This document shows, in pieces, positions 213 to 10,836 of a stretch of DNA of 44,355 bases (its first letter is position 1; the number at the start of each line of letters is the position of its first letter). A program made the position numbers and the translations under genes. The notes beneath the pieces were generated by a model. That model ran no database searches. It was given only the letters and a program-made list of their open reading frames with translations, and was not told the origin of the DNA. This stretch comes from Microthrixaceae bacterium (GTDB lineage Bacteria; Actinomycetota; Acidimicrobiia; Acidimicrobiales; Microtrichaceae): the NCBI GenBank assembly GCA_020027475.1, contig JAHRAZ010000088.1, forward strand, positions 1 through 44,355. Reading direction: 5' to 3'.

Positions 213-1109
213 CTAGACCTCTGCAGCCTCATTGTCCTGGTCCGGTGAAGCATCATCGGCCTCGGGATCATCAACCACCGTGCCATCACGACGAACCAGC
301 TTCCCTCGGTACTTCTGCTTTTCGCCGGGCTGACTGAATGCCCATCGGAAGAAGATGAAGCCGATGATTCCCCAGAGGTAGAAACCCGTGATCACCTTCA
401 TGATCACGCCCGCCAGTTGCTGGTCACCGACCACGTCGAAGCCCCACAGACGAAAACCGTGGTCGTATCCGGAATAGATCACACCTTCGGACACCGTCAG
501 GAAGGCCGCGGGGATCGTGGGAATGATCGACATCAGGAAGATGGTGACCATCTGCATCGGGGGAGGTGCGCGGAGTTCGGGTACAGGCCCGCAGATGGAC
601 ATCCACACGAGAAACGCCGAGAACACGATCAGGGTGTGAAGTCCGTAATGAATCCATCCATAGGTGATGGAGTTGTTCACGATCCAGGCCCAATGGGAGA
701 ACGCAATGAGGAGGTTGTAGACGATCACCGCAGGCATCGGCCTGGCCCAGAAATAGATGAACCGCTTGAACCCGCCCTCACCAATCACCAGTCTCGACAG
801 CCACGTGGGGACCGCCATGAGCATCATCGGCGGCATCACGAGCGTGATCAGGGCGTGCTGGACCATGTGTATCCAGTACAGGCGCTCCTCGGAAATGTCG
901 TGGACGGGCCAGTCCGTGGATACCCAGAACACAAAGAGTCCGGCCCAGAACCAGATCTTCTGATTCCGGCTGATGGCGGGGTGGCCGGCAGCAACCGCCT
1001 TCGGCTGGATGATTCTCGCGACGTAGATGCCGAGAGCGGCAATGGCCGCCGTGAGCAGCCACACCTCAGGATGAGGCTGCCAGCTGGGGAATGCCGACTC
1101 AGCGAACAT
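213..1109 (-). CDS. ctaG: Cytochrome c oxidase assembly factor CtaG, caa3 type
   Basis: A 298-residue membrane protein of the caa3_CtaG family, which helps assemble caa3-type oxidase (needed for function in Bacillus; the exact step is not settled). It has about seven hydrophobic segments. The family signature is seen in the histidine-rich part near residues 69-90 (DISEER, YWIHMVQHALITLV) with a proline-rich turn MPPMMLM. The tail after about residue 260 is charged and acidic. It starts with ATG preceded by GGAGG very close to the start. It is the last gene of the minus-strand oxidase cluster, 21 bases after ctaF. Confidence 0.9.
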   Translation of the reverse strand: MFAESAFPSWQPHPEVWLLTAAIAALGIYVARIIQPKAVAAGHPAISRNQKIWFWAGLFVFWVSTDWPVHDISEERLYWIHMVQHALITLVMPPMMLMAVPTWLSRLVIGEGGFKRFIYFWARPMPAVIVYNLLIAFSHWAWIVNNSITYGWIHYGLHTLIVFSAFLVWMSICGPVPELRAPPPMQMVTIFLMSIIPTIPAAFLTVSEGVIYSGYDHGFRLWGFDVVGDQQLAGVIMKVITGFYLWGIIGFIFFRWAFSQPGEKQKYRGKLVRRDGTVVDDPEADDASPDQDNEAAEV

Positions 1110-1130: not shown

Positions 1131-1679
1131 TCAGCCGCCTTCAGGGACTGTGGTGGTGACTATCTCGGGAGGCGGGTCGTTGAACCAGGGAATGCCACTG
1201 TCGGTCCAGAAGTTCATCGATGACAACGCAATCAGATAGATGGCCAACGCGAACAACACACCGAATATGAAGACCCTCCGCAGAATCTTTGGGTCGAACT
1301 TCAAGTGCATGAAGATCCCGGCGATCATCACGAACTTGATGAACATCAGCGCGAAGAGGACCGTGGTGGCGACGTAGCGCACGGCGTCGGTGTCACCGAA
1401 CCAGTCCGGCCACCAGTACGTGCTCACCTCCAGCACCGTGAGGCCCAGAAGGATCCAGAACACCGTGAAGTACTGGCCATCGGTGGGACCGTGCTCATGA
1501 GCGGGATCCAGATGCCCCATGCCGCGACCGTCGTCAGCACCGCCGTCAGACGTCTTCGGGGCACCGGCCGCGGTTGTTTCGTCTACCGGCGACACAGCGT
1601 CTTGCAACGCGCCCCCGGTGTCGTCGACACTCTGGCCGAAGTGTCCGGAATCATCAGTTTGAGTATCTGTGCTGCTCAC
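1131..1679 (-). CDS. ctaF: Cytochrome c oxidase subunit IV (prokaryotic COX4 type)
   Basis: A small oxidase subunit of 182 residues. The first 70 residues are polar and low-complexity (rich in D, G, T); then come three membrane helices, with the family pattern FVMIAGIFMHLKFDP at about residues 113-127. I chose the GTG at 1679 because AGGAG lies 6-8 bases before it; a longer reading frame to 1727 would run into ctaE. The gene begins 8 bases after the ctaE stop. The protein has no redox ligands and packs against the catalytic core in related oxidases. Confidence 0.85.
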   Translation of the reverse strand: MSSTDTQTDDSGHFGQSVDDTGGALQDAVSPVDETTAAGAPKTSDGGADDGRGMGHLDPAHEHGPTDGQYFTVFWILLGLTVLEVSTYWWPDWFGDTDAVRYVATTVLFALMFIKFVMIAGIFMHLKFDPKILRRVFIFGVLFALAIYLIALSSMNFWTDSGIPWFNDPPPEIVTTTVPEGG

Positions 1680-1687
1680 GACTCTCC

Positions 1688-2317
1688 TCACACCACCAAG
1701 TAGACGACCGTGAAGATCACGACCCAAACGATGTCAACGAAGTGCCAGAACAAGCCCAGCACTTCCACACCTTCTGCCTCAATTTCCCGTTTGAACGACA
1801 AACCGAGCATCGACAACAACATCAGGACACCCACGAACACGTGCGCTCCGTGGAAACCCGTGAGCGTGAAGAATGCAGATGTGGAAACGTTCGTTGTGAA
1901 TCCCGCCCCTTCGGAGACGAACACCGAGAATTCGTAGATCTGGCCGCCGAGGAACAAAGCTCCAAGCAGAGCGGTGGTGCCGAGCCACAGCCTCATGCGT
2001 TGGTGATCGCCCCGCATCGCGGATGTCACCGACAACACCATGGTCAGCGAACTCATCAAGAGGATGAAGGTGGTCATGGAGGTGAAGGGAATGTCGAACA
2101 GCTCGCTGATCTGCAGCGAGCTGCCGGCGAGTCCTTCGATTTCGCCCGGACGGTTCCTGTACACCATGTAGGTGGATATGAGTCCACCGAAGAGCAGGCA
2201 ATCCGATGCCAGATAAACCCACATTGCGAGCTTGGGATTCGAGATTCCGGTGGCTGTGGCGTGTGGATCGTCCGGAAACTCGAGGTCCTGGGCCGGTTCT
2301 AGAGATACCTCAGCCAA
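1688..2317 (-). CDS. ctaE: Cytochrome c oxidase subunit III
   Basis: Subunit III of the caa3 oxidase, 209 residues from the TTG at 2317. Conserved features are Glu129 in GQIYEF, His156 and His159 in GFHGAH, and His192 in FWHFVD. Five to seven helices are predicted. The TTG is preferred because GAGGAGG lies 6 bases upstream; it overlaps the last 8 bases of ctaD (TTGGCTGA), so the two genes are probably translationally coupled. In-frame ATG codons further upstream would place the start deep inside ctaD. The protein helps keep the oxidase stable during turnover. Confidence 0.92.
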   Translation of the reverse strand: MAEVSLEPAQDLEFPDDPHATATGISNPKLAMWVYLASDCLLFGGLISTYMVYRNRPGEIEGLAGSSLQISELFDIPFTSMTTFILLMSSLTMVLSVTSAMRGDHQRMRLWLGTTALLGALFLGGQIYEFSVFVSEGAGFTTNVSTSAFFTLTGFHGAHVFVGVLMLLSMLGLSFKREIEAEGVEVLGLFWHFVDIVWVVIFTVVYLVV

Positions 2318-4376
2318 CGGGGGCCTCCTCGGTCGTGAATTCGGAAGAGTCCGCCTCTTCGGCATCGTCTGATTCGGCTGAGGCTTGCGCCTCACCGGAG
2401 GTCAGCTCAGCCGGTTCACCGGTACTGTCGACGGGATCGGGTCCCTCGAGATCGTCATGATGATCGCTTGGGGCATCCGGCGGTTCCATCACCCAGCCAT
2501 AGATCGCCACGAGCATCAGGAGTGCGCCCGGAAGCGCCCACCACAGGTTGAATATGAGGCCGTAGCCGACCAGTGGGAAGCCGACGGCCATGACCAGCGG
2601 CCAGTAGGAGGGTGAAGGCAGGTGGATGCCGGTGGCGCCACCGTGCTGCGCCACCTCCTCGGTGGGAGCGATTCGCACCAGACGGCCGTCTTCGTCGTGG
2701 CCGTACTTGCGGTGCCAGAACTCGTCGAATTCCTCCACCACGACCGTCTCGTCGAAGTTGTACTCGGGAGTCGGGCTCGGAATCATCCACTCCAGCGACC
2801 GCGCATCCCAAGGATCGGGACCCGGATTCACCGGGTTCCTCTTGTGAGCGCGATAACTCGCCCAGATGTTGACCAGGAAGATGGTCACGGAGACCGCCAG
2901 GGTGAACGCACCGATCGTGGCCACAAGGTTCCACGTGTTGAACCCGTATCCATCGGAGTAGGTCCAGGTGCGACGCATCATGCCTTGCAGTCCGAGCATG
3001 TGCATCGGGCCGAAGGTCAGGTTGAAGCCGATCATCATCAACCAGAAGTGCCATTTGCCCAGCGTCTCTCCCAGGAACATCCCGAACATCTTCGGATACC
3101 AGAAGTAGATGCCCGAGAAGAGGCCCAGCACTGCCCCACCGAAGAGCACGTAGTGGAAGTGGGCAACGATGTAGTAGGTGTCGGTCTGCTGGGTATCAGC
3201 GGGCGCCACGGCGTGGGACACGCCGGACAAGCCACCGATCGTGAACATCGCCACCAGGCCTACCGAAAACAACATCGCAGTGGTGAATCTCAATCGTCCG
3301 CCATACATCGTTGCGCACCAGTTGAGGATCTTCACGCCGGTCGGCACGGCGATGAACATCGTTGCCAGCGAGAAGGCCAACACCGAGATCTCTCCCATGC
3401 CCGAGGCGAACATGTGGTGAGCCCACACACCCCAGCCCATGAAGCCGATCGCAATGCCGGAGCCGACCATGAAGGGATAACCGAAGATCGGTTTCCGGGA
3501 GAACACCGGGATCACCTCGGAGACGACGCCGAAGGCCGGCAAAATCATGATGTACACCTCTGGATGACCGAATATCCAGAAGAGATGCTCCCAGAGGAAC
3601 GGATCTCCGCCCTTGCTGGCGTCGAAGAACGTGGCGCCAAAGAGACGATCGAACATCAGAAGAAAGAGCGCCACGGTAATCACCGGGAGCGCAAAGACCA
3701 GGAGGACCTGCACGATGAAGGTCATCCAGGTGAAAACGGGCATCCGCATCAGCGTCATTCCGGGGGTCCGCAGGTTCAGAACGGTCACCGTCAGGTTCAC
3801 CGCTGACACGGTGGAGGCGATACCCATGATGAGCAGGCCCACCGCATAGAAGTCCATGCCGTGACTGGGAGAGAAGGCAACACCGGAGTTCGGGGCATAG
3901 GCGAACCAGCCACCATCAGCACCGCCGCCGAGCAACCACGACGAGTTGAAGAAGATGGCTCCGAGCAACCAGATCCACAGCGAGAGTGCATTCATTCTGG
4001 GGAATGCAACGTCTCGGGCGCCGATCTGCAACGGCAGGAGGTAGTTCGCAAACGCAGCAGCCAAGGGCATCACCACGAGGAACACCATCGTGACGGCGTG
4101 CATTGTGAAGATCTGATTGTACAACTCCGCAGAAAGCAGATCGCTTCCCGGAATCGCCAGCTGTGTGCGGATCAGAAGGGCTTCGAGCCCGCCCACCAGG
4201 AAGAAGAACAGCGCGGCAGCACCGTACATGATGCCGATTTTCTTGTGATCGACGGTGGTGAACCAGGACTTCCATCCCTGGGTGGCCGTGGGTCGCGTGA
4301 ACACCCCGAGGTGATTTTGAGCCGACGGCTCGCCACCCGGCAGCGCCAGTGGCGTCCGCTCAGAAACAACAGTCAT
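2310..4376 (-). CDS. ctaD: Cytochrome c oxidase subunit I (catalytic)
   Basis: The catalytic subunit of the terminal oxidase, reducing O2 to water and pumping protons. All metal ligands are present: His93 and His408 for low-spin heme a, His406 for heme a3, His271, His320 and His321 for CuB, and Tyr275 of GHPEVY for the His-Tyr crosslink. At 688 residues it is longer than the usual 530-560. After the core come the segment SLEWMIPSPTP, two more hydrophobic helices (from about residue 590) and an acidic tail rich in D, E and S. It starts with ATG behind GAGGAA and follows ctaC by 10 bases. Confidence 0.97.
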   Translation of the reverse strand: MTVVSERTPLALPGGEPSAQNHLGVFTRPTATQGWKSWFTTVDHKKIGIMYGAAALFFFLVGGLEALLIRTQLAIPGSDLLSAELYNQIFTMHAVTMVFLVVMPLAAAFANYLLPLQIGARDVAFPRMNALSLWIWLLGAIFFNSSWLLGGGADGGWFAYAPNSGVAFSPSHGMDFYAVGLLIMGIASTVSAVNLTVTVLNLRTPGMTLMRMPVFTWMTFIVQVLLVFALPVITVALFLLMFDRLFGATFFDASKGGDPFLWEHLFWIFGHPEVYIMILPAFGVVSEVIPVFSRKPIFGYPFMVGSGIAIGFMGWGVWAHHMFASGMGEISVLAFSLATMFIAVPTGVKILNWCATMYGGRLRFTTAMLFSVGLVAMFTIGGLSGVSHAVAPADTQQTDTYYIVAHFHYVLFGGAVLGLFSGIYFWYPKMFGMFLGETLGKWHFWLMMIGFNLTFGPMHMLGLQGMMRRTWTYSDGYGFNTWNLVATIGAFTLAVSVTIFLVNIWASYRAHKRNPVNPGPDPWDARSLEWMIPSPTPEYNFDETVVVEEFDEFWHRKYGHDEDGRLVRIAPTEEVAQHGGATGIHLPSPSYWPLVMAVGFPLVGYGLIFNLWWALPGALLMLVAIYGWVMEPPDAPSDHHDDLEGPDPVDSTGEPAELTSGEAQASAESDDAEEADSSEFTTEEAPVG

Positions 4377-4386
4377 CGTGGATTCC

Positions 4387-5568
4387 TCACTTGAGCGTGA
4401 TCAGGTAGGCAACAAGCTGGTCAATTTGTTCTTCGGACAGACCCATGTTGGGCATTCCCTGCCCATTCTCGGGATCCATCGGCTTCACTTCTTCAGGGTT
4501 CCGCAGCCAACGCTTCAGGTTGTTGGTGTTTGGAATTCCCGGATTCATCACCTCGGGCGAGGCCGGCTCATCGTAAAGAGCAAGCAGCGAGCCAGCGAAC
4601 GTGTCCCGCATCATCAGGTGAGTGAGGTTGGGCGCATTCTGCGCGGACAACGCCGATCCGACAGTTGCCCCGTAATCGGGATCCGGGATCGGTGTGTAGG
4701 CAGGATCTTCGTCGCCCGGCGAAATCCCGTTGATCTGATGGCAGCCGGTGCACTGCTGCACGAACAGCTCCTGACCTGCGATCTGGTCGGCGTCGCTGGG
4801 ATCATCCGGATTCGTGGTCATGATGTCGAGCCAGTCTTCGTATTCCGCTTCTGGCAGAGACTTGACCTGCATGCGCATCACACCATGGGACAGGCCGCAG
4901 AATTCGGTGCATTGGCCTTCGAACACCCCCGGTTCATAGGACTGCAGCACCAGAGGATGGGTTCGGCCGGGAACTGCGTCCTTCTTGCCGTTCAGAGTGG
5001 GGATCCAGAAGGAATGGATCACGTCGTTCGACTGGATCTTGAGGTTCACGTCATGGTCAGCAGGCATGACCAACTGGTTGGCCGTGATGATGTCCACTTC
5101 ACCGTCGCCGTTGGTGTCGTAGCGGAATTCCCACCACCACTGCTGACCAATCACCTCCACCTCGATGGCGTCAGCCGAAGCATCCTCCATCTTGAGGATG
5201 GTGTTCACGTTGAGGACTGCAAGGCCGGCCAGGATGACGGCCGGAACGATCGTCCAGCCGATCTCCAGGCTGGTGATGCCATGAACCTGCCGGGGTTCAT
5301 TCTGACCCTCTTCGTCGGAGTCTTCAGCGCGGAAACGGACGACCATCCAGATGATCGCCACCTCAACCAGGAGGAAGACCACCGCGGCAATTCCGAATAC
5401 CCAATAAGTGAGTGTCTGGATGTAGTCGGCCTTCACACCGTGCGGACTGAGTGTGTTCAACGGGAAGGTGACCGAACTCGTCGCACCACGAAGCATGAGC
5501 CAACCGGAAACGATGAAGACGACCGTGGCCACTATGGCCCAGATCATTGCCTTGGTCTTGTTAGTCAT
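4387..5568 (-). CDS. ctaC: Cytochrome c oxidase subunit II with fused cytochrome c domain
   Basis: Accepts electrons from the respiratory chain. It has 393 residues and three predicted membrane segments (about 8-28, 55-76, 103-123). A cupredoxin domain follows with QQWWWEF and the CuA ligands His185, Cys220, Glu222, Cys224, His228 and Met231. A C-terminal class I cytochrome c carries CTGCH at 273-277, with a likely axial Met in the GMPNMG segment at 371-376. The fused heme domain defines the caa3 type. The ATG is preceded by an AGAGGTAGGA stretch. It lies between a multi-span membrane protein and ctaD in one operon. Confidence 0.97.
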   Translation of the reverse strand: MTNKTKAMIWAIVATVVFIVSGWLMLRGATSSVTFPLNTLSPHGVKADYIQTLTYWVFGIAAVVFLLVEVAIIWMVVRFRAEDSDEEGQNEPRQVHGITSLEIGWTIVPAVILAGLAVLNVNTILKMEDASADAIEVEVIGQQWWWEFRYDTNGDGEVDIITANQLVMPADHDVNLKIQSNDVIHSFWIPTLNGKKDAVPGRTHPLVLQSYEPGVFEGQCTEFCGLSHGVMRMQVKSLPEAEYEDWLDIMTTNPDDPSDADQIAGQELFVQQCTGCHQINGISPGDEDPAYTPIPDPDYGATVGSALSAQNAPNLTHLMMRDTFAGSLLALYDEPASPEVMNPGIPNTNNLKRWLRNPEEVKPMDPENGQGMPNMGLSEEQIDQLVAYLITLK

Positions 5569-5577
5569 TCCTACCTC

Positions 5578-6486
5578 TCAGTACCCGCTGGTACCGGCTG
5601 GCTGAGCGCCCACGGAAGGCGGCGAACTCAATGACGTCTGAATAGTCGGGGACTCGACGAGCGAGATGGCACCTTCTTCCCCGTGGTGCTCCTCAATGTC
5701 GCGCTGGCCTGCGATCCCGGCAGCAATTCCACTACCGATCAGGACCACACCGCCCACGACCAGCACGGTCACGAGAACAGAGCGGGTCAACTCGGGTCTG
5801 CGGGCAAGCAAGTTTGCCAGACCGAAGACCACCACGGCCACGATGATGATCACGAACACGGCCCCGACCTCGGAAACCGCAAGCAGAACCCTCGACATTG
5901 CAACCGCAACCACGCCAATCGTCAACGCGACGACCACCGGGAGTTCGACCGGCGCCAGGATCTGGTTGTGCAGGCCGTCATCTGCATCAGCGTCCCCGGC
6001 AGAGAACTCGGACGAGGACCGCACAACCCATTCGAGAGCCGCTGCAGCGATACCAACGAGGCCCACAAAGAGCAGGAAGGTCGAGAAGGCCGTGCCGACA
6101 GCCACCAATGCGGCGGAAACTGCGGCAACCAGCGGCCAGATGCTGTAGCCGACCGGACTGACGGGTGGCGCGACATCAGCCATCGGTACGGAGTTCACAA
6201 TGGCTATGGATTGAACGTCGGCATCGCGTGTCGCCGTGGTGAGTGCACCCATCAGGGCCATGACCGCGGCGAAGGCCATGAGAACCGAGTAGCCGACGTG
6301 GTCGCCGATGGAACCTTTCCAGCCAAACGTGATCGGACCGACCACAGCCTCGACCACACCGCCGGAACTCAGGGTGGCGAATACTCCACCAGTGGCCGAT
6401 GCTGCTGTCACGAACCCGTAGAAAAGTCCCGAGATCAGACCGATCAGGGCCGCTGAGAAGAAGAGTTTGGAGCCTCGTGTGATCAA
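5578..6486 (-). CDS. Multi-span membrane protein of the oxidase cluster, function unknown
   Basis: A 302-residue protein with about seven or eight hydrophobic helices, a polar loop around residues 160-175 (SAGDADADDG) and a C-terminal exposed stretch with DIEEHHGEEG. I do not recognise a named family. The stretch beginning SPVGYSIWPLVAA, at about residue 113, recalls small actinobacterial oxidase subunits of the subunit IV kind, but this is only a resemblance. The start is TTG with GTGAGG upstream, 7 bases after the preceding gene. It has 9 bases to ctaC, so it is surely co-transcribed with the oxidase genes. It has no heme- or copper-binding motif. Confidence 0.75.
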   Translation of the reverse strand: MITRGSKLFFSAALIGLISGLFYGFVTAASATGGVFATLSSGGVVEAVVGPITFGWKGSIGDHVGYSVLMAFAAVMALMGALTTATRDADVQSIAIVNSVPMADVAPPVSPVGYSIWPLVAAVSAALVAVGTAFSTFLLFVGLVGIAAAALEWVVRSSSEFSAGDADADDGLHNQILAPVELPVVVALTIGVVAVAMSRVLLAVSEVGAVFVIIIVAVVVFGLANLLARRPELTRSVLVTVLVVGGVVLIGSGIAAGIAGQRDIEEHHGEEGAISLVESPTIQTSLSSPPSVGAQPAGTSGY

Positions 6487-6493
6487 CGTCGCC

Positions 6494-7072
6494 TCACTTC
6501 ATCACGTAGACCGCGATCCAGATCGCGGCATAGACGGCAACCATGGAATCCCAGAACAACGCGGTGGCGCTGAGGGCACTCATGTTTCGGGGGGAATAGT
6601 GCCCAGCCAGAGTTCGAAAGGCAATCAGGACGATCATGCACATCCCCACCACCGCCATGGCGATGTGGGAACCGGTGACCGTGTAGAACAACGGGCCTTC
6701 GGGCTGGACTTCGGTGATGCCGACCAGTTTGAACAAGAAGATGCTCTGGTTGATGAATGCGGCACCCAGAATGAACGTCACACCAAGGGCCAGAGCGCTG
6801 GCGGAGCGGTCGTTGTGCCTCATCGACCAGACAGCCCACTGAACTGTGAAGACCGACATCACCAATGCCGCCATCTGCATGTTCGGTTGCGTGAGCGGAA
6901 TGGTGTTGCCTGAGAGCCATTCGGCACCGAAGGAACTTCTCTCGGCCATGTACGCCCCGAGAAGGGCCAACAGGGCCACAACCGTCCCAGCGGACACGAA
7001 GGCCGTTGCAAAAAGAACATCGGGTCTGCCGGGCCGTTCGCCGGCAGGAATGCTCGATGGTTCGACAGACAT
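6494..7072 (-). CDS. Degenerate cytochrome oxidase subunit III-like protein
   Basis: A 192-residue membrane protein that aligns with CtaE of this window almost without gaps from about residue 65: LGAAFINQSIFLF against LGALFLGGQIYEF, TVTGSHIAM against TLTGFHGAH, and FWDSM against FWHFV. The conserved glutamate becomes Leu113, and two of the three conserved histidines become Met139 and Asp175; His136 is kept. The start is ATG at 7072, which shares one base with the TGA of the upstream gene (TGATG) and has AAGGAGG upstream, so translation is coupled. It is the partner of the redox-dead subunit I-like protein encoded just upstream. Confidence 0.8.
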   Translation of the reverse strand: MSVEPSSIPAGERPGRPDVLFATAFVSAGTVVALLALLGAYMAERSSFGAEWLSGNTIPLTQPNMQMAALVMSVFTVQWAVWSMRHNDRSASALALGVTFILGAAFINQSIFLFKLVGITEVQPEGPLFYTVTGSHIAMAVVGMCMIVLIAFRTLAGHYSPRNMSALSATALFWDSMVAVYAAIWIAVYVMK

Positions 7073-8640
7073 CACTCGCCCTCCTTCTCGTCGAGAAGAG
7101 GATACGGCGATTCGATGAGCGGGATTTCCGCCGTCCTCTCGCCGCCCATCGCGGGCGAGGGAGTCTGCCACTCCAGAGTCAATCCGTCGAAGGGGTTCTC
7201 CGGGGCCTCGCCATCCTCGTCCTGCGCCGAAGCGCTCGCTCCAAGCGAGAACACCAAGGCCACTGCAATGCCGGCGAGCATCACCAAGGCGCTTCCCGCA
7301 GCGAGCCAACCGAAGAGGGTTTCACCCGTGTCACCTGAACCCTGGACGAACACTGCCACTGCGAGGATCGTGCCCAGCAGTCCGCCGCCGATGTCCGACA
7401 TCACCACCGACGCGGTTGCCAGTTTGTCGTCTGCTTCGGTTCCCCAGATCTTGACTGACCAGTAGGCCAACCCTGCCACCGCGCCCGTGACGGCGGCGGC
7501 AACCACGAACACCATCTGTGCTTCGGCCAAGGCGGCTGTTCCGAAGTCGAACAAGGTGCCCTTGCCGGCGGTGTTCAAGGACATGATCAAACCAATGACC
7601 ACCGCACCCAACAGGTTGATCAGGGACAAAATCGAACCCACGAGGGCTGCATTCACCCGGGGTTTGCCATGCCGGAGTGAATCGGCGAACCCGCCCAGCA
7701 GACCGAGGAGCGGCAGGGCGATGCCCAGAGTCCACAGGAACCAGAGCGCGGTATCGATCACGGAATTGCTCACGGCCCATGCGCCAAAGGACAGGATTCC
7801 GTATGTGGCAATCAATGCCTGCATCGCCTGGTAGTTGATCAGGCGGCGTTGCGTGGCGGTCACGACCACATCCGCTGCCATACCGAGCACCGGGATGCCC
7901 AGCATGAACACCGCCGGGCCGCGCGTGAGCCATGAGATGTTGCCGGCGAAGTTGGTGAAGTAGTCCGCCGCCCCGCCGTTGAGAACGTGACCGATGAGAA
8001 CAAACGCGACTGCGGCGCCAATCGTGGTTACCCAGATGGCGGCGGAAACCAGGATCGACCAGGAGAAAAGCGGCACACGAGCCAATGTCATTCCCTCGTG
8101 ACGGTGGGTGATCACCGTGGTTCCGACACAGATGATTCCGAGCGCAAGGGCCAGAAGAAGCGCGCCGAAGGAGACGTTTCCGAGCCGGGCGGCGTCAGTG
8201 TCCGCGCCACCAAAGCCGCCATCAAGAACCATCGATGTGAGGAACACGGTGGAGAAGATCAACCAGCCCCACAGCGAGAGCGCTGCGGCCCGGGGGAGCG
8301 CAACCGAGGGTGATCCGATCTGAAGCGGCACAATCACCATCGCCACTCCCAGAAGCAGCGGCAGTACCCCCAGGAAGATGAGGGTGATCATGGAACTGTT
8401 CGTGACCATCTGCTGGTAACCGCCCAGCAGGCCGTTGTTGGTTCCCGTGTCGATCCCCACAAGGATCCGCCCGGTCAGCGAACCAAGCAGAAACACCAGG
8501 GAGAAACCGATGAAAAGCCGACCGATCATCGTGTGGTCGCCCGAACCCAGCAGACCCAAGATCTCGTTTGGCTGACCGGTTTTCGCCGACGCAATCGAAT
8601 CAGGCGCGCTCTGCGGGGATGTCGTCTCTGTGACTGCCAT
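7072..8640 (-). CDS. Redox-dead cytochrome oxidase subunit I-like protein
   Basis: A 522-residue protein with at least twelve hydrophobic segments, clearly related to CtaD: PLQIGSPSVALPR against PLQIGARDVAFPR, EGMTLARVPLFSW against PGMTLMRMPVFTW, and the C-terminal LEWQTPSP against LEWMIPSP. All ligand positions differ: His93 to Ser83, His271 to Gly241, Tyr275 to Phe245, His320-His321 to Val290-Ser291, His406 to Glu373 and His408 to Gln375. It cannot bind heme a, heme a3 or CuB in the usual way. The start chosen is the ATG at 8640 (AAGAGGG seven bases upstream). The frame is open and undamaged, which suggests selection. The role is unknown; a structural or regulatory partner of the true oxidase is a guess. 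Confidence 0.85.
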   Translation of the reverse strand: MAVTETTSPQSAPDSIASAKTGQPNEILGLLGSGDHTMIGRLFIGFSLVFLLGSLTGRILVGIDTGTNNGLLGGYQQMVTNSSMITLIFLGVLPLLLGVAMVIVPLQIGSPSVALPRAAALSLWGWLIFSTVFLTSMVLDGGFGGADTDAARLGNVSFGALLLALALGIICVGTTVITHRHEGMTLARVPLFSWSILVSAAIWVTTIGAAVAFVLIGHVLNGGAADYFTNFAGNISWLTRGPAVFMLGIPVLGMAADVVVTATQRRLINYQAMQALIATYGILSFGAWAVSNSVIDTALWFLWTLGIALPLLGLLGGFADSLRHGKPRVNAALVGSILSLINLLGAVVIGLIMSLNTAGKGTLFDFGTAALAEAQMVFVVAAAVTGAVAGLAYWSVKIWGTEADDKLATASVVMSDIGGGLLGTILAVAVFVQGSGDTGETLFGWLAAGSALVMLAGIAVALVFSLGASASAQDEDGEAPENPFDGLTLEWQTPSPAMGGERTAEIPLIESPYPLLDEKEGE

Positions 8641-8771: not shown

Positions 8772-9677
8772 TTACCACCCATTGCGCACAATGACGTCCA
8801 CGGCCATCAGGGCAAAAAGAAGGGTGACATAGGTGATGGAATAGGTGAAGAGCTTGATCGCATCGGCCGTGGACTTCGTGCTTTGGACCTTGATGGTCAT
8901 GGCCAGGAAGAAAACCCCGAGCAGCGCGGCGCCGATCCAGTACAGGATCCCCATCTCGGCGGTGACCGCGAACACCATGGAGCAGGCCACGACCACCACG
9001 GAGTAGATGAGCATCTGCCGCGTTGTTTCATCCAGGGTCTTCACGGTGGGCAACATCGGCACGCCGGCCTTGCCGTAGTCATCCTTGTAGCGAATCGCCA
9101 ACGCCCAGAAATGCGGTGGGGTCCAGAAGAACATGAGGGCGAACAGCACCCAGGCCGAGAGCGAGAGCGAGTTGGTGACGGCCGCCCACCCGATGAGGAC
9201 TGGCGCAGCGCCTGCCGCGCCTCCGATCACGATGTTCTGGGTGGTGGTCCGCTTGAGCCAGAGCGTGTAGACGAACACGTAGAACAGGCACGCTGCCAGG
9301 GCGAGCGCCGCTGAAAGCAGATTGACGAAGTACCAGAGCCACAGAACTGCGAACAATTCCAGCAGGATGGCGAAGACCAGTGCCGAAGTGGGTTGCATGA
9401 CACCGGTCACGAGGGGCCGATTCCTGGTCCGCTCCATCTTGGCGTCGATGTCGCGGTCCACATACATGTTGATCGCGTTCGCACCGCCGGCGCTCAATGT
9501 GCCACCGATGACAGTGGCGACCATCAACCAGACTCCGGGCACGCCGTTGTTGGCCACAACCATCACGGGAACGGTGGTGACCAGGAGCAATTCGATGATC
9601 CGCGGCTTCGTCAGCGCCACATAGGCACCGACAACCGACCAGATCGACTGTTGCGTGGGGACAGCATGGGCGACCAT
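8772..9677 (-). CDS. ctaB: Protoheme IX farnesyltransferase (heme O synthase)
   Basis: Transfers a farnesyl group to heme B, giving heme O, the precursor of heme A for the oxidase encoded downstream. This UbiA-type prenyltransferase has the Asp-rich motif at residues 67-80 (ANAINMYVDRDIDA) and the second loop YKDDYGKAGVPMLP, plus about nine helices. I chose the ATG at 9677, giving 301 residues and a normal N-terminus ending in ALTKPR; a TTG at 9722 would add 15 residues. Neither has a strong ribosome binding site. It is the first gene of the minus-strand cluster and is divergent from ctaA. Confidence 0.93.
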   Translation of the reverse strand: MVAHAVPTQQSIWSVVGAYVALTKPRIIELLLVTTVPVMVVANNGVPGVWLMVATVIGGTLSAGGANAINMYVDRDIDAKMERTRNRPLVTGVMQPTSALVFAILLELFAVLWLWYFVNLLSAALALAACLFYVFVYTLWLKRTTTQNIVIGGAAGAAPVLIGWAAVTNSLSLSAWVLFALMFFWTPPHFWALAIRYKDDYGKAGVPMLPTVKTLDETTRQMLIYSVVVVACSMVFAVTAEMGILYWIGAALLGVFFLAMTIKVQSTKSTADAIKLFTYSITYVTLLFALMAVDVIVRNGW

Positions 9678-9783
9678 TTGGCCCAAACGGTACGGCCCCC
9701 GGACGCGATTCGCCAGAAACAACGAAAACGAACATTCCCTGCCCGTGATCGGTCAACACCCGTGATGGGTCAATATCGCACAG

Positions 9784-10836
9784 GTGTCAGACTTTCTCCC
9801 GATGAGCACAAGCGACCTCGCCCCCAACGACTCCAAAGGGCCCAACGACACCGCTGACCCCGACACCCGTCTCACCAGTGAGCACCACGCGGAGCGTTTC
9901 ACCATCTCCGCAGGAACATACCGGGGGATCGTGCTGGTGGCCCTGATCCTGCTCTGCATGATTGTCCTCACAGGGGCAGCAGTCCGCCTCACGGGTTCGG
10001 GACTCGGGTGTTCAGACTGGCCCAACTGCGAAACCGGCAAGCTGATCAGCGTGTCTGACGGCCACCAGGCCGTCGAGCAAATCAACCGTTTGTTCACCGG
10101 CGCGGTCTCGGCGGGTGTGATTGCTGCCGTGCTGGGAGCGTTTCGCCGGCGCCCCTACGACCGCACCCTGGTCCATGTGTCGCTGGGATTGGTCGCCGGG
10201 GTACTCGCCCAGGCAGTTCTCGGTGGAATATCTGTACTCACCGGCCTGAATCCGATAGTTGTTGGCGGCCATTTCGGCTTGTCCATGGTGCTCGTGTGCG
10301 CCGCAACCGTGTTGCTATGGCGCAGTGGAGACCATGGCCCGCGGGGATCGGAGCCCAATGCCCATTCCGCGATCTGGCTCTCTTGGATGATGATGGCGGT
10401 GGGCACCATCGTGCTGGTGGTCACCGGGCCGATGCTCACCGGCACCGGGCCGCACGCGGGCGACCTCGACGCCAAGAGGATCCAGATGGCGATTCCCGAC
10501 GCGGCCCGCATTCACAGTCTGTCAGCCTGGTTGTTCCTCGGGCTGATTCTGGCGTTGGTGTTCTCCTTGTGGCAACGAGGGGCCGGCCGCATCTTGGTAC
10601 GTGCCTATCCGCTGCTCGTCGCAGTCCTTGTTCAGGGAGGAATCGGCTACGCGCAGTACAGCCTGGGGATTCCGGCTTGGCTCGTGATCCTTCATATTGC
10701 CGGAGCAACCGCCATCACGGTCGCTGCCGCCTGGTTCCACTCAGGACTCCTCCACGACGCAGCCACCACGTCGACGAGTCCACAGCGAACACCCACGGGC
10801 GAGTCCCCCGCCGGAATCAACTCACGGCGCCAGTAG
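9784..10836 (+). CDS. ctaA: Heme A synthase
   Basis: Oxidises the C8 methyl of heme O to a formyl group. The 350-residue COX15/CtaA protein has about eight helices. The first loop carries [15 protein letters not shown] with the Cys76/Cys82 pair of the actinobacterial and Bacillus type. The motif EQINRLFTG (Glu98) has Asn where many homologues have His. Probable heme ligands His131 (LVHVSLGL) and His163 (GGHFGLS) are present. Tail residues after about 320 are polar. The start is GTG at 9784 or possibly the ATG at 9802; no ribosome binding site is clear. It is divergent from ctaB. Confidence 0.92.

Follow-up and report, generated by a model that had tools for sequence, protein, structure and literature searches.

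What keeps a cytochrome oxidase subunit I gene in place once all of its metal ligands are gone? The question is raised by a gene cluster in a 44,355-nucleotide contig of a Microthrixaceae bacterium (order Acidimicrobiales), the whole of which is called the window below. Next to the genes of a caa3-type oxidase lies a module of three genes, COX1', COX3' and the gene of P0003, a membrane protein of 302 amino acids (Table 1). COX1' and CtaD are the two COX1 matches of the window genome, and CtaD keeps all metal ligands (ligand string HHEYHHHH). The ctaB-like gene presumably encodes haem O synthase, judging by context. Beyond it, a divergent gene at 9784-10836 (+) appears, by its motifs, to resemble haem A synthase (ctaA).

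Table 1. Genes of the oxidase cluster and of the three-gene module, with their positions in the window
Feature	Coordinates	Strand	Evidence
ctaG-type assembly factor	213..1109	-	PF09678 1.9e-35
ctaF-like subunit IV, start uncertain	1131..1727	-	PF03626 3.2e-10; TIGR02229 34.5 bits, just below cut-off 37.25
ctaE, subunit III of active oxidase, start uncertain	1688..2395	-	PF00510 2.6e-17
ctaD, subunit I, all ligands, with fused C-terminal subunit IV-like piece	2310..4376	-	PF00115 508 bits, PF12270 36 bits
ctaC, subunit II with fused cytochrome c (active caa3-type oxidase)	4387..5568	-	PF00116, PF02790, PF00034
P0003, third module protein, membrane, TTG start	5578..6486	-	profile matches to P0003 relatives
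COX3' (P0002), subunit III-like	6494..7072	-	Pfam COX3 4.2e-8, 33.8 bits, cut-off 23.8
COX1' (P0001), subunit I-like, no metal ligands	7072..8640	-	Pfam COX1, predicted fold, ligand columns
ctaB-like UbiA prenyltransferase	8772..9722	-	PF01040 6e-67

The COX1' frame is open throughout, from ATG to TGA (522 amino acids). It has an AAGAGGG box 7 nucleotides ahead of the start codon and shares one base of its stop codon with the start codon of COX3' (TGATG, 7074-7070), which bears out the intact frame, the ribosome binding site and the coupling described in a previous sequence-only reading of this DNA. The match to Pfam COX1 (PF00115, 1.1e-20, 74.3 bits) is above the curated cut-off of 34.8, whereas the scores with TIGR02891 (CtaD_CoxA, 97.5 bits) and NF050116 (actinobacterial aa3, 74.6 bits) are below the cut-offs of 670.75 and 880, respectively. 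The AlphaFold2 model, built with 37 sequences, has twelve long helices (pLDDT 85.8, pTM 0.90). Foldseek searches with this model yielded oxidase entries in all 50 matches listed, and in VIA-align it was superimposed on subunit I of E. coli cytochrome bo3 (8qqk_A) over 490 residues, with Z 39.3 and rmsd 2.8; at rank 50 Z was still 31.6. COX1' is predicted to adopt the cytochrome oxidase subunit I fold over nearly its full length, in agreement with the previous reading.

None of the cofactor sites remains. In alignments with CtaD and with the relatives of COX1', the low-spin haem pair His93 and His408 of CtaD corresponds to Ser83 and Val377, and the proximal ligand of the high-spin haem, His406, to Gln375. 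The three Cu(B) histidines His271, His320 and His321 are replaced by Gly241, Val290 and Ser291, and the cross-linked Tyr275 by Phe245; Glu273 corresponds to Ala243. The earlier claim that the six ligand histidines and the tyrosine are changed holds, but its pairing of His406 and His408 with Glu373 and Gln375 was off by two positions. There are five histidines in COX1' (36, 179, 181, 218, 324) and none of them is in a ligand column, so the ligands are not merely displaced in register, a point on which a check had been proposed. The D-path columns Asp122 and Asn129 (CtaD numbering) are occupied by Ser and Ala, and the K-path column Lys350 by Leu; because of these losses the proton-conducting role suggested previously is weakened.

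The gene is nevertheless under constraint. Comparison of the window with the nearest genome (90% identity), a single genome pair, gave Nei-Gojobori dN/dS values of 0.13 for COX1', 0.12 for COX3', 0.12 for P0003 and 0.03 for a 451-codon stretch of ctaD; the Yang-Nielsen values were 0.13, 0.11, 0.13 and 0.03, respectively. Pseudogene drift is not what this ratio for COX1' indicates, and the view that selection maintains the gene next to the true oxidase is upheld for this pair. Frameshifted relatives or a dN/dS near 1 had been named as observations that would speak against the earlier reading. The ratio is far from 1, and no internal stops are reported among the matches listed; the exception is one incomplete genome, where COX1' is split across two frames (locus L077, genome G024). 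With a fold that is predicted to be kept under selection and catalytic residues that are gone, COX1' is a pseudoenzyme in the general sense. It evolves several times faster than CtaD: on the tree path from the window to locus L054 there are 1.01 changes per site for COX1' and 0.17 for CtaD.

The three genes travel together. In the 121 module loci, defined by the presence of COX1' and a P0003 relative, COX3' adjoins COX1' in 118. Among loci with enough flank, 103 of 104 have a ctaB homologue on the upstream side of the module, ctaC is the next gene downstream in at least 89 of 111 (a lower bound from a single-query search), and 84 of 90 have a C-type ctaD, the type of the window CtaD, no more than 3.5 kb away. 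The six misses are of several kinds. In L113 the gene is present and its open stretch begins inside P0003; in L150 it extends over two frames; in L050 it is about 6 kb away; and in the genome of L139 a C-type match lies farther on in the contig. No C-type ctaD was found within the stretches of L038 and L133, which come from one genome. In L050 (5857-10553, family f29) several genes stand between the module and ctaC; on visual inspection they look like a metal ABC transporter and a Fur-type regulator.

P0003 has a composite appearance. The middle of its profile matches the C-terminal extension of CtaD, part of which is called subunit IV by Pfam (PF12270). Pfam finds no domain in the window copy, PF12270 and Cupredoxin_1 both being absent; among 27 aligned P0003 proteins, PF12270 is detected in 7 at E <= 0.1 (best 0.0002) and Cupredoxin_1 in 3 at E up to 0.1, the copper motif agreeing. 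Several P0003 relatives inside the order contain a blue-copper domain with its ligand motif, which is absent from the window copy. This domain was scored by a motif of our own with an assumed ligand order; of six in-order proteins submitted to Pfam, four match (one below the cut-off), and the two missed are missed by the motif as well. In other orders and classes of the phylum, the match to the C-terminal half of P0003 is an apparently independent protein, encoded close to the end of ctaC-ctaD-ctaE-ctaF-ctaG clusters. Such small membrane-anchored proteins were seen in L089-L104 and L106, and the four that were submitted to Pfam, as open stretches of 217-269 amino acids, all have a blue-copper match. 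Two P0003 relatives (L107:6208-7353 and L049:4850-6361) have long C-terminal tails with no copper motif, by eye maybe decayed copper domains. The structure model of P0003 is weak (pLDDT 69.5, pTM 0.43) and was left out of the reasoning.

Judged by the P0003-relative profile (E <= 1e-8), the module is present in 200 of 298 sampled Acidimicrobiales genomes, COX1' itself having been viewed in part of these. In 296 genomes of the phylum, all matches to the P0003 profile at 1.4e-43 or better fall within the order (16 genomes), and the next-best match, outside the order, reaches 2.3e-26 and covers the C-terminal half only. Relatives from outside the order are, among the matches listed, at the match level of ordinary CtaD. 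Twenty-nine COX1' loci were found among the best 80 of 520 candidates, all in metagenome-assembled genomes. Ten of these are labelled only at the phylum or class level (Actinomycetota, Actinobacteria, Actinomycetes) and the other 19 within Acidimicrobiia: 5 Acidimicrobiales, 2 Acidimicrobiia, 7 Acidimicrobiaceae, 4 Ilumatobacter or Ilumatobacteraceae, and 1 Ferrithrix. These labels point to Acidimicrobiales as the order concerned. Since three single-contig genomes (G005, G034, G038) also carry the module, it is not an assembly artefact.

The module accompanies one type of oxidase. Of the 200 genomes that carry the module, 182 have a C-type ctaD (called as a match to the window CtaD at E <= 1e-200), compared with 3 of the 98 module-negative genomes, as raw counts that ignore kinship. 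The three genomes with C-type ctaD and no detected module are G056, G597 and G660, where it may be lost or may have been missed in fragmented assemblies; among 31 module-negative genomes picked by hand, C-type ctaD was seen in one (G056). The converse, the module with no C-type match at E <= 1e-200, is observed in 18 genomes. The module and another oxidase, the T-type (called at 600 bits or more, plus one partial match with 72% identity) tend not to share a genome: both are found in 30 genomes, the module only in 170, the T-type only in 80, and neither in 18, again ignoring kinship and taking the 298 genomes as the same draw for the module, C-type and T-type counts.

The T-type subunits are also the phylogenetic neighbours of COX1'. 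In a quick tree of 76 sequences, COX1' forms one clade (support 100) that groups, also with support 100, with the T-type, the active aa3-type subunits I of Actinomycetota and some Chloroflexota, apart from C-type CtaD. A joint clade of COX1' and C-type CtaD is rejected (p-AU 0.0015). The earlier description of COX1' as a copy of the neighbouring CtaD does not hold, and a recent ctaD duplication is rejected by the tree and the AU test, with caution owing to the long COX1' branches, the quick tree and a chosen outgroup that does not form one side of a branch.

Some relatives of COX1' have lost less. In 98 loci with a COX1 gene upstream of P0003, chosen with no condition on Cu(B), since counts inside a class defined by lacking the Cu(B) set would be circular, the three Cu(B) histidines are found in none: 94 have no such histidine and 4 have one (in three of the 98 loci the column of the first haem ligand is gapped). 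The set is likewise missing in all 26 loci of this arrangement among the best 80 of the 520 candidates. The low-spin haem pair, on the other hand, is kept in 30 of 114 distinct COX1' sequences, obtained from the 121 loci after setting aside six loci whose stretch contains no COX1, three that are gapped at a ligand column, and sequences shorter than 430 amino acids. In nine of the 98 loci (e.g. L046, L048, L051) the high-spin haem histidine is kept together with the low-spin pair. Such relatives may bind haem, as their retained ligand residues suggest.

The haem pair and the copper domain occur together in 22 of the 114 sequences, the haem pair only in 8, the copper domain only in 2, and neither in 82 (Fisher 7e-15). 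By parsimony, the haem pair changed 7 times and the copper domain 4 times. About one of six independent pairs on the tree is informative and the sign test is not significant; coupled loss of the two, strong in the raw counts, has too few tree pairs behind it, and we therefore limit the claim to both old states sitting in the same lineages. The relatives appear to form a series, from proteins with no Cu(B) site that keep the haem histidines and a blue-copper domain, through those with the haem histidines only, to those with nothing. Because 30 of 114 keep the haem pair, 22 of them with the copper domain, the ancestor was probably a redox protein.

The reading we favour, to which we give about even chances on the evidence of the sequences, is that the module is a former oxidase core turned into a cofactor-free structural partner of the caa3 oxidase. 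A second oxidase core, comprising subunits I, III and IV and a membrane-anchored blue-copper protein, would have given rise to COX1', COX3' and P0003. The Cu(B) site would have gone early; the lineage of the window would then have lost all of its haem and copper sites. The old aa3 oxidase may have been replaced as the enzyme by the caa3 oxidase, its core surviving as a partner; this would fit the ancestry of COX1'. At present, the three proteins would form one cofactor-free pseudo-oxidase complex that binds the caa3 oxidase of the adjoining downstream genes and assists in its assembly, stabilisation or docking, redox chemistry being left to the active partner. The full sequence of events, from a second core through a haem and blue-copper complex lacking Cu(B) to a conserved partner or scaffold, with living intermediates of each stage in one order, is offered more tentatively.

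The partner reading is proposed because a full-length COX1 fold is predicted and dN/dS is low in all three genes; because the module is linked to ctaB, ctaC and C-type ctaD and co-occurs with the latter; and because conservation is lowest in the outer loops, where an electron donor would dock. It would also be consistent with ligand loss, an ancestry apart from ctaD and the graded losses in relatives. In 90 sequences with no haem pair, the information per column is 2.38 bits on the cytoplasmic side, 1.67 in the outer-side loops and 2.16 in the helices; the corresponding values for C-type CtaD are 3.44, 3.65 and 3.47. Relative to C-type CtaD, the best-conserved parts of COX1' are helices III-V (0.69-0.76) and, on the cytoplasmic side, several stretches; the outer loops are conserved least (0.35-0.65; loops V-VI, VII-VIII and IX-X, 0.35-0.46). 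Helices III-V of subunit I face subunit III in known oxidases.

Several observations count against the partner reading. The conserved cytoplasmic face of COX1' is largely common to all subunit I proteins, and the cytoplasmic loop VI-VII is as depleted as the outer loops (0.41). The rate of COX1' given above, several times that of CtaD, is loose for a tight scaffold. The 3 genomes with C-type ctaD and no detected module, and the 18 with the module and no C-type match, are exceptions to a strict partnership. Finally, linkage and co-occurrence are expected equally of an assembly factor, and polar residues at the former ligand sites of many relatives could mean a function of the pocket.

The main rival of the structural partner is the first of these, an assembly device that serves the caa3 oxidase, in which a decoy pair of subunits I and III would hold an intermediate or help to pass haem A or copper, and leave before the enzyme is complete. 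In most of the loci with sufficient flank the module is located between the genes ctaB and ctaC; this, the relationship of P0003 to a membrane-anchored copper protein and the association with one type of ctaD all fit such a device. However, the cluster already has ctaB- and ctaG-type genes, and the window type, whose mapped columns contain neither a haem nor a copper ligand and which has no copper domain, would have to work without binding cofactors there. We consider this explanation unlikely, though deserving serious attention.

The pocket has its own claim to attention, as COX1' could be a channel, carrier or binding protein that uses the old active-site cavity for an ion, a lipid or a small molecule. 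The predicted twelve-helix fold is kept, and in the 90 relatives with no haem pair the His320 (66), His271 (50) and His406 (50) columns are most often occupied by Gln, while 50 have Arg next to the first haem-ligand column, inside helix II. For some members of the COX1' family, these residues may mean that the pocket has a function. However, they are seldom found together (all three Gln in 15 of 90, three Gln with Arg in 8 of 90), and the window protein has Met84, Gly241, Val290 and Gln375 at these columns, sharing Gln375 alone. With the D- and K-path residues also gone, a channel or carrier is an improbable description of the module.

It is also improbable, and a shade more so, that haem or another cofactor is still bound through ligands of a non-oxidase type, COX1' being a redox or sensor protein. 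The relatives that keep the haem pair, most of them with a blue-copper domain, speak for it; against it, no histidine of the window COX1' stands in a ligand column, the copper domain is gone from the window P0003, and Pfam finds no sensor domain in COX1'. That the module is a decaying relic on its way to loss is very improbable: the fast evolution of COX1', the loss of every cofactor site and the gene in two frames in L077 would agree with decay, but the low dN/dS, the P0003 profile matches in two thirds of the sampled genomes and the three genes remaining together disfavour it.

The role of a bridge to a canonical actinobacterial bcc complex was considered as well and is weakened, as the two cytochrome b matches of the window genome are in split b6/petD-type loci. 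These loci (L251 and L252; G000:C138 and C74) contain separate b6-like and petD-like pieces; one is beside Rieske and cytochrome c genes and the other next to a 4Fe-4S protein. A search for NrfD of alternative complex III gave no match in the window genome.

Metal ligands are the hallmark by which the haem-copper oxidase superfamily is recognised. A branch that has none of them and is yet conserved and widespread would mean that the fold can be kept for a role other than the chemistry of oxygen or NO, and suggests a task for the oxidase fold besides the consumption of oxygen. The prediction for Acidimicrobiales is an unrecognised partner complex of the caa3 oxidase, and the relatives of COX1' may serve as a natural series for following the loss of redox function in a respiratory complex. 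The earlier statement that no function has been described agrees with our finding no description of a metal-free oxidase subunit I protein in the open-access library that was searched; oxidase evolution and assembly are treated in PMC8239418 and PMC9145763.

Among known systems, the T-type aa3 subunits I share with COX1' the fold, the cytoplasmic motifs and a C-terminal TLEW..SPP stretch, but keep the six metal-ligand histidines and the tyrosine. In Acidithrix ferrooxidans (L178) a T-type gene stands beside ctaC and qcrB; its product passes TIGR02891 and scores 773.6 bits with NF050116, itself below the cut-off. CtaD of the same cluster has about 28% identity to COX1' and the same fold and cytoplasmic motifs; unlike COX1', it retains all metal ligands and proton-path residues, and it belongs to a separate lineage. 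The membrane-anchored cupredoxin of cta clusters is related to the C-terminal half of P0003; it is apparently a separate protein with a blue-copper match, whereas in the window P0003 this half is joined to a subunit IV-like piece and has no copper domain. For the proposed role itself an analogy is CydB of cytochrome bd, a haem-free paralogue of the fold of the catalytic subunit that acts as a structural partner. CydB belongs to an unrelated family and is an established subunit, which COX1' is not; like CydB, however, COX1' is a paralogue of a catalytic fold, has no haem ligands in the mapped columns, and would be a structural partner of the active enzyme.
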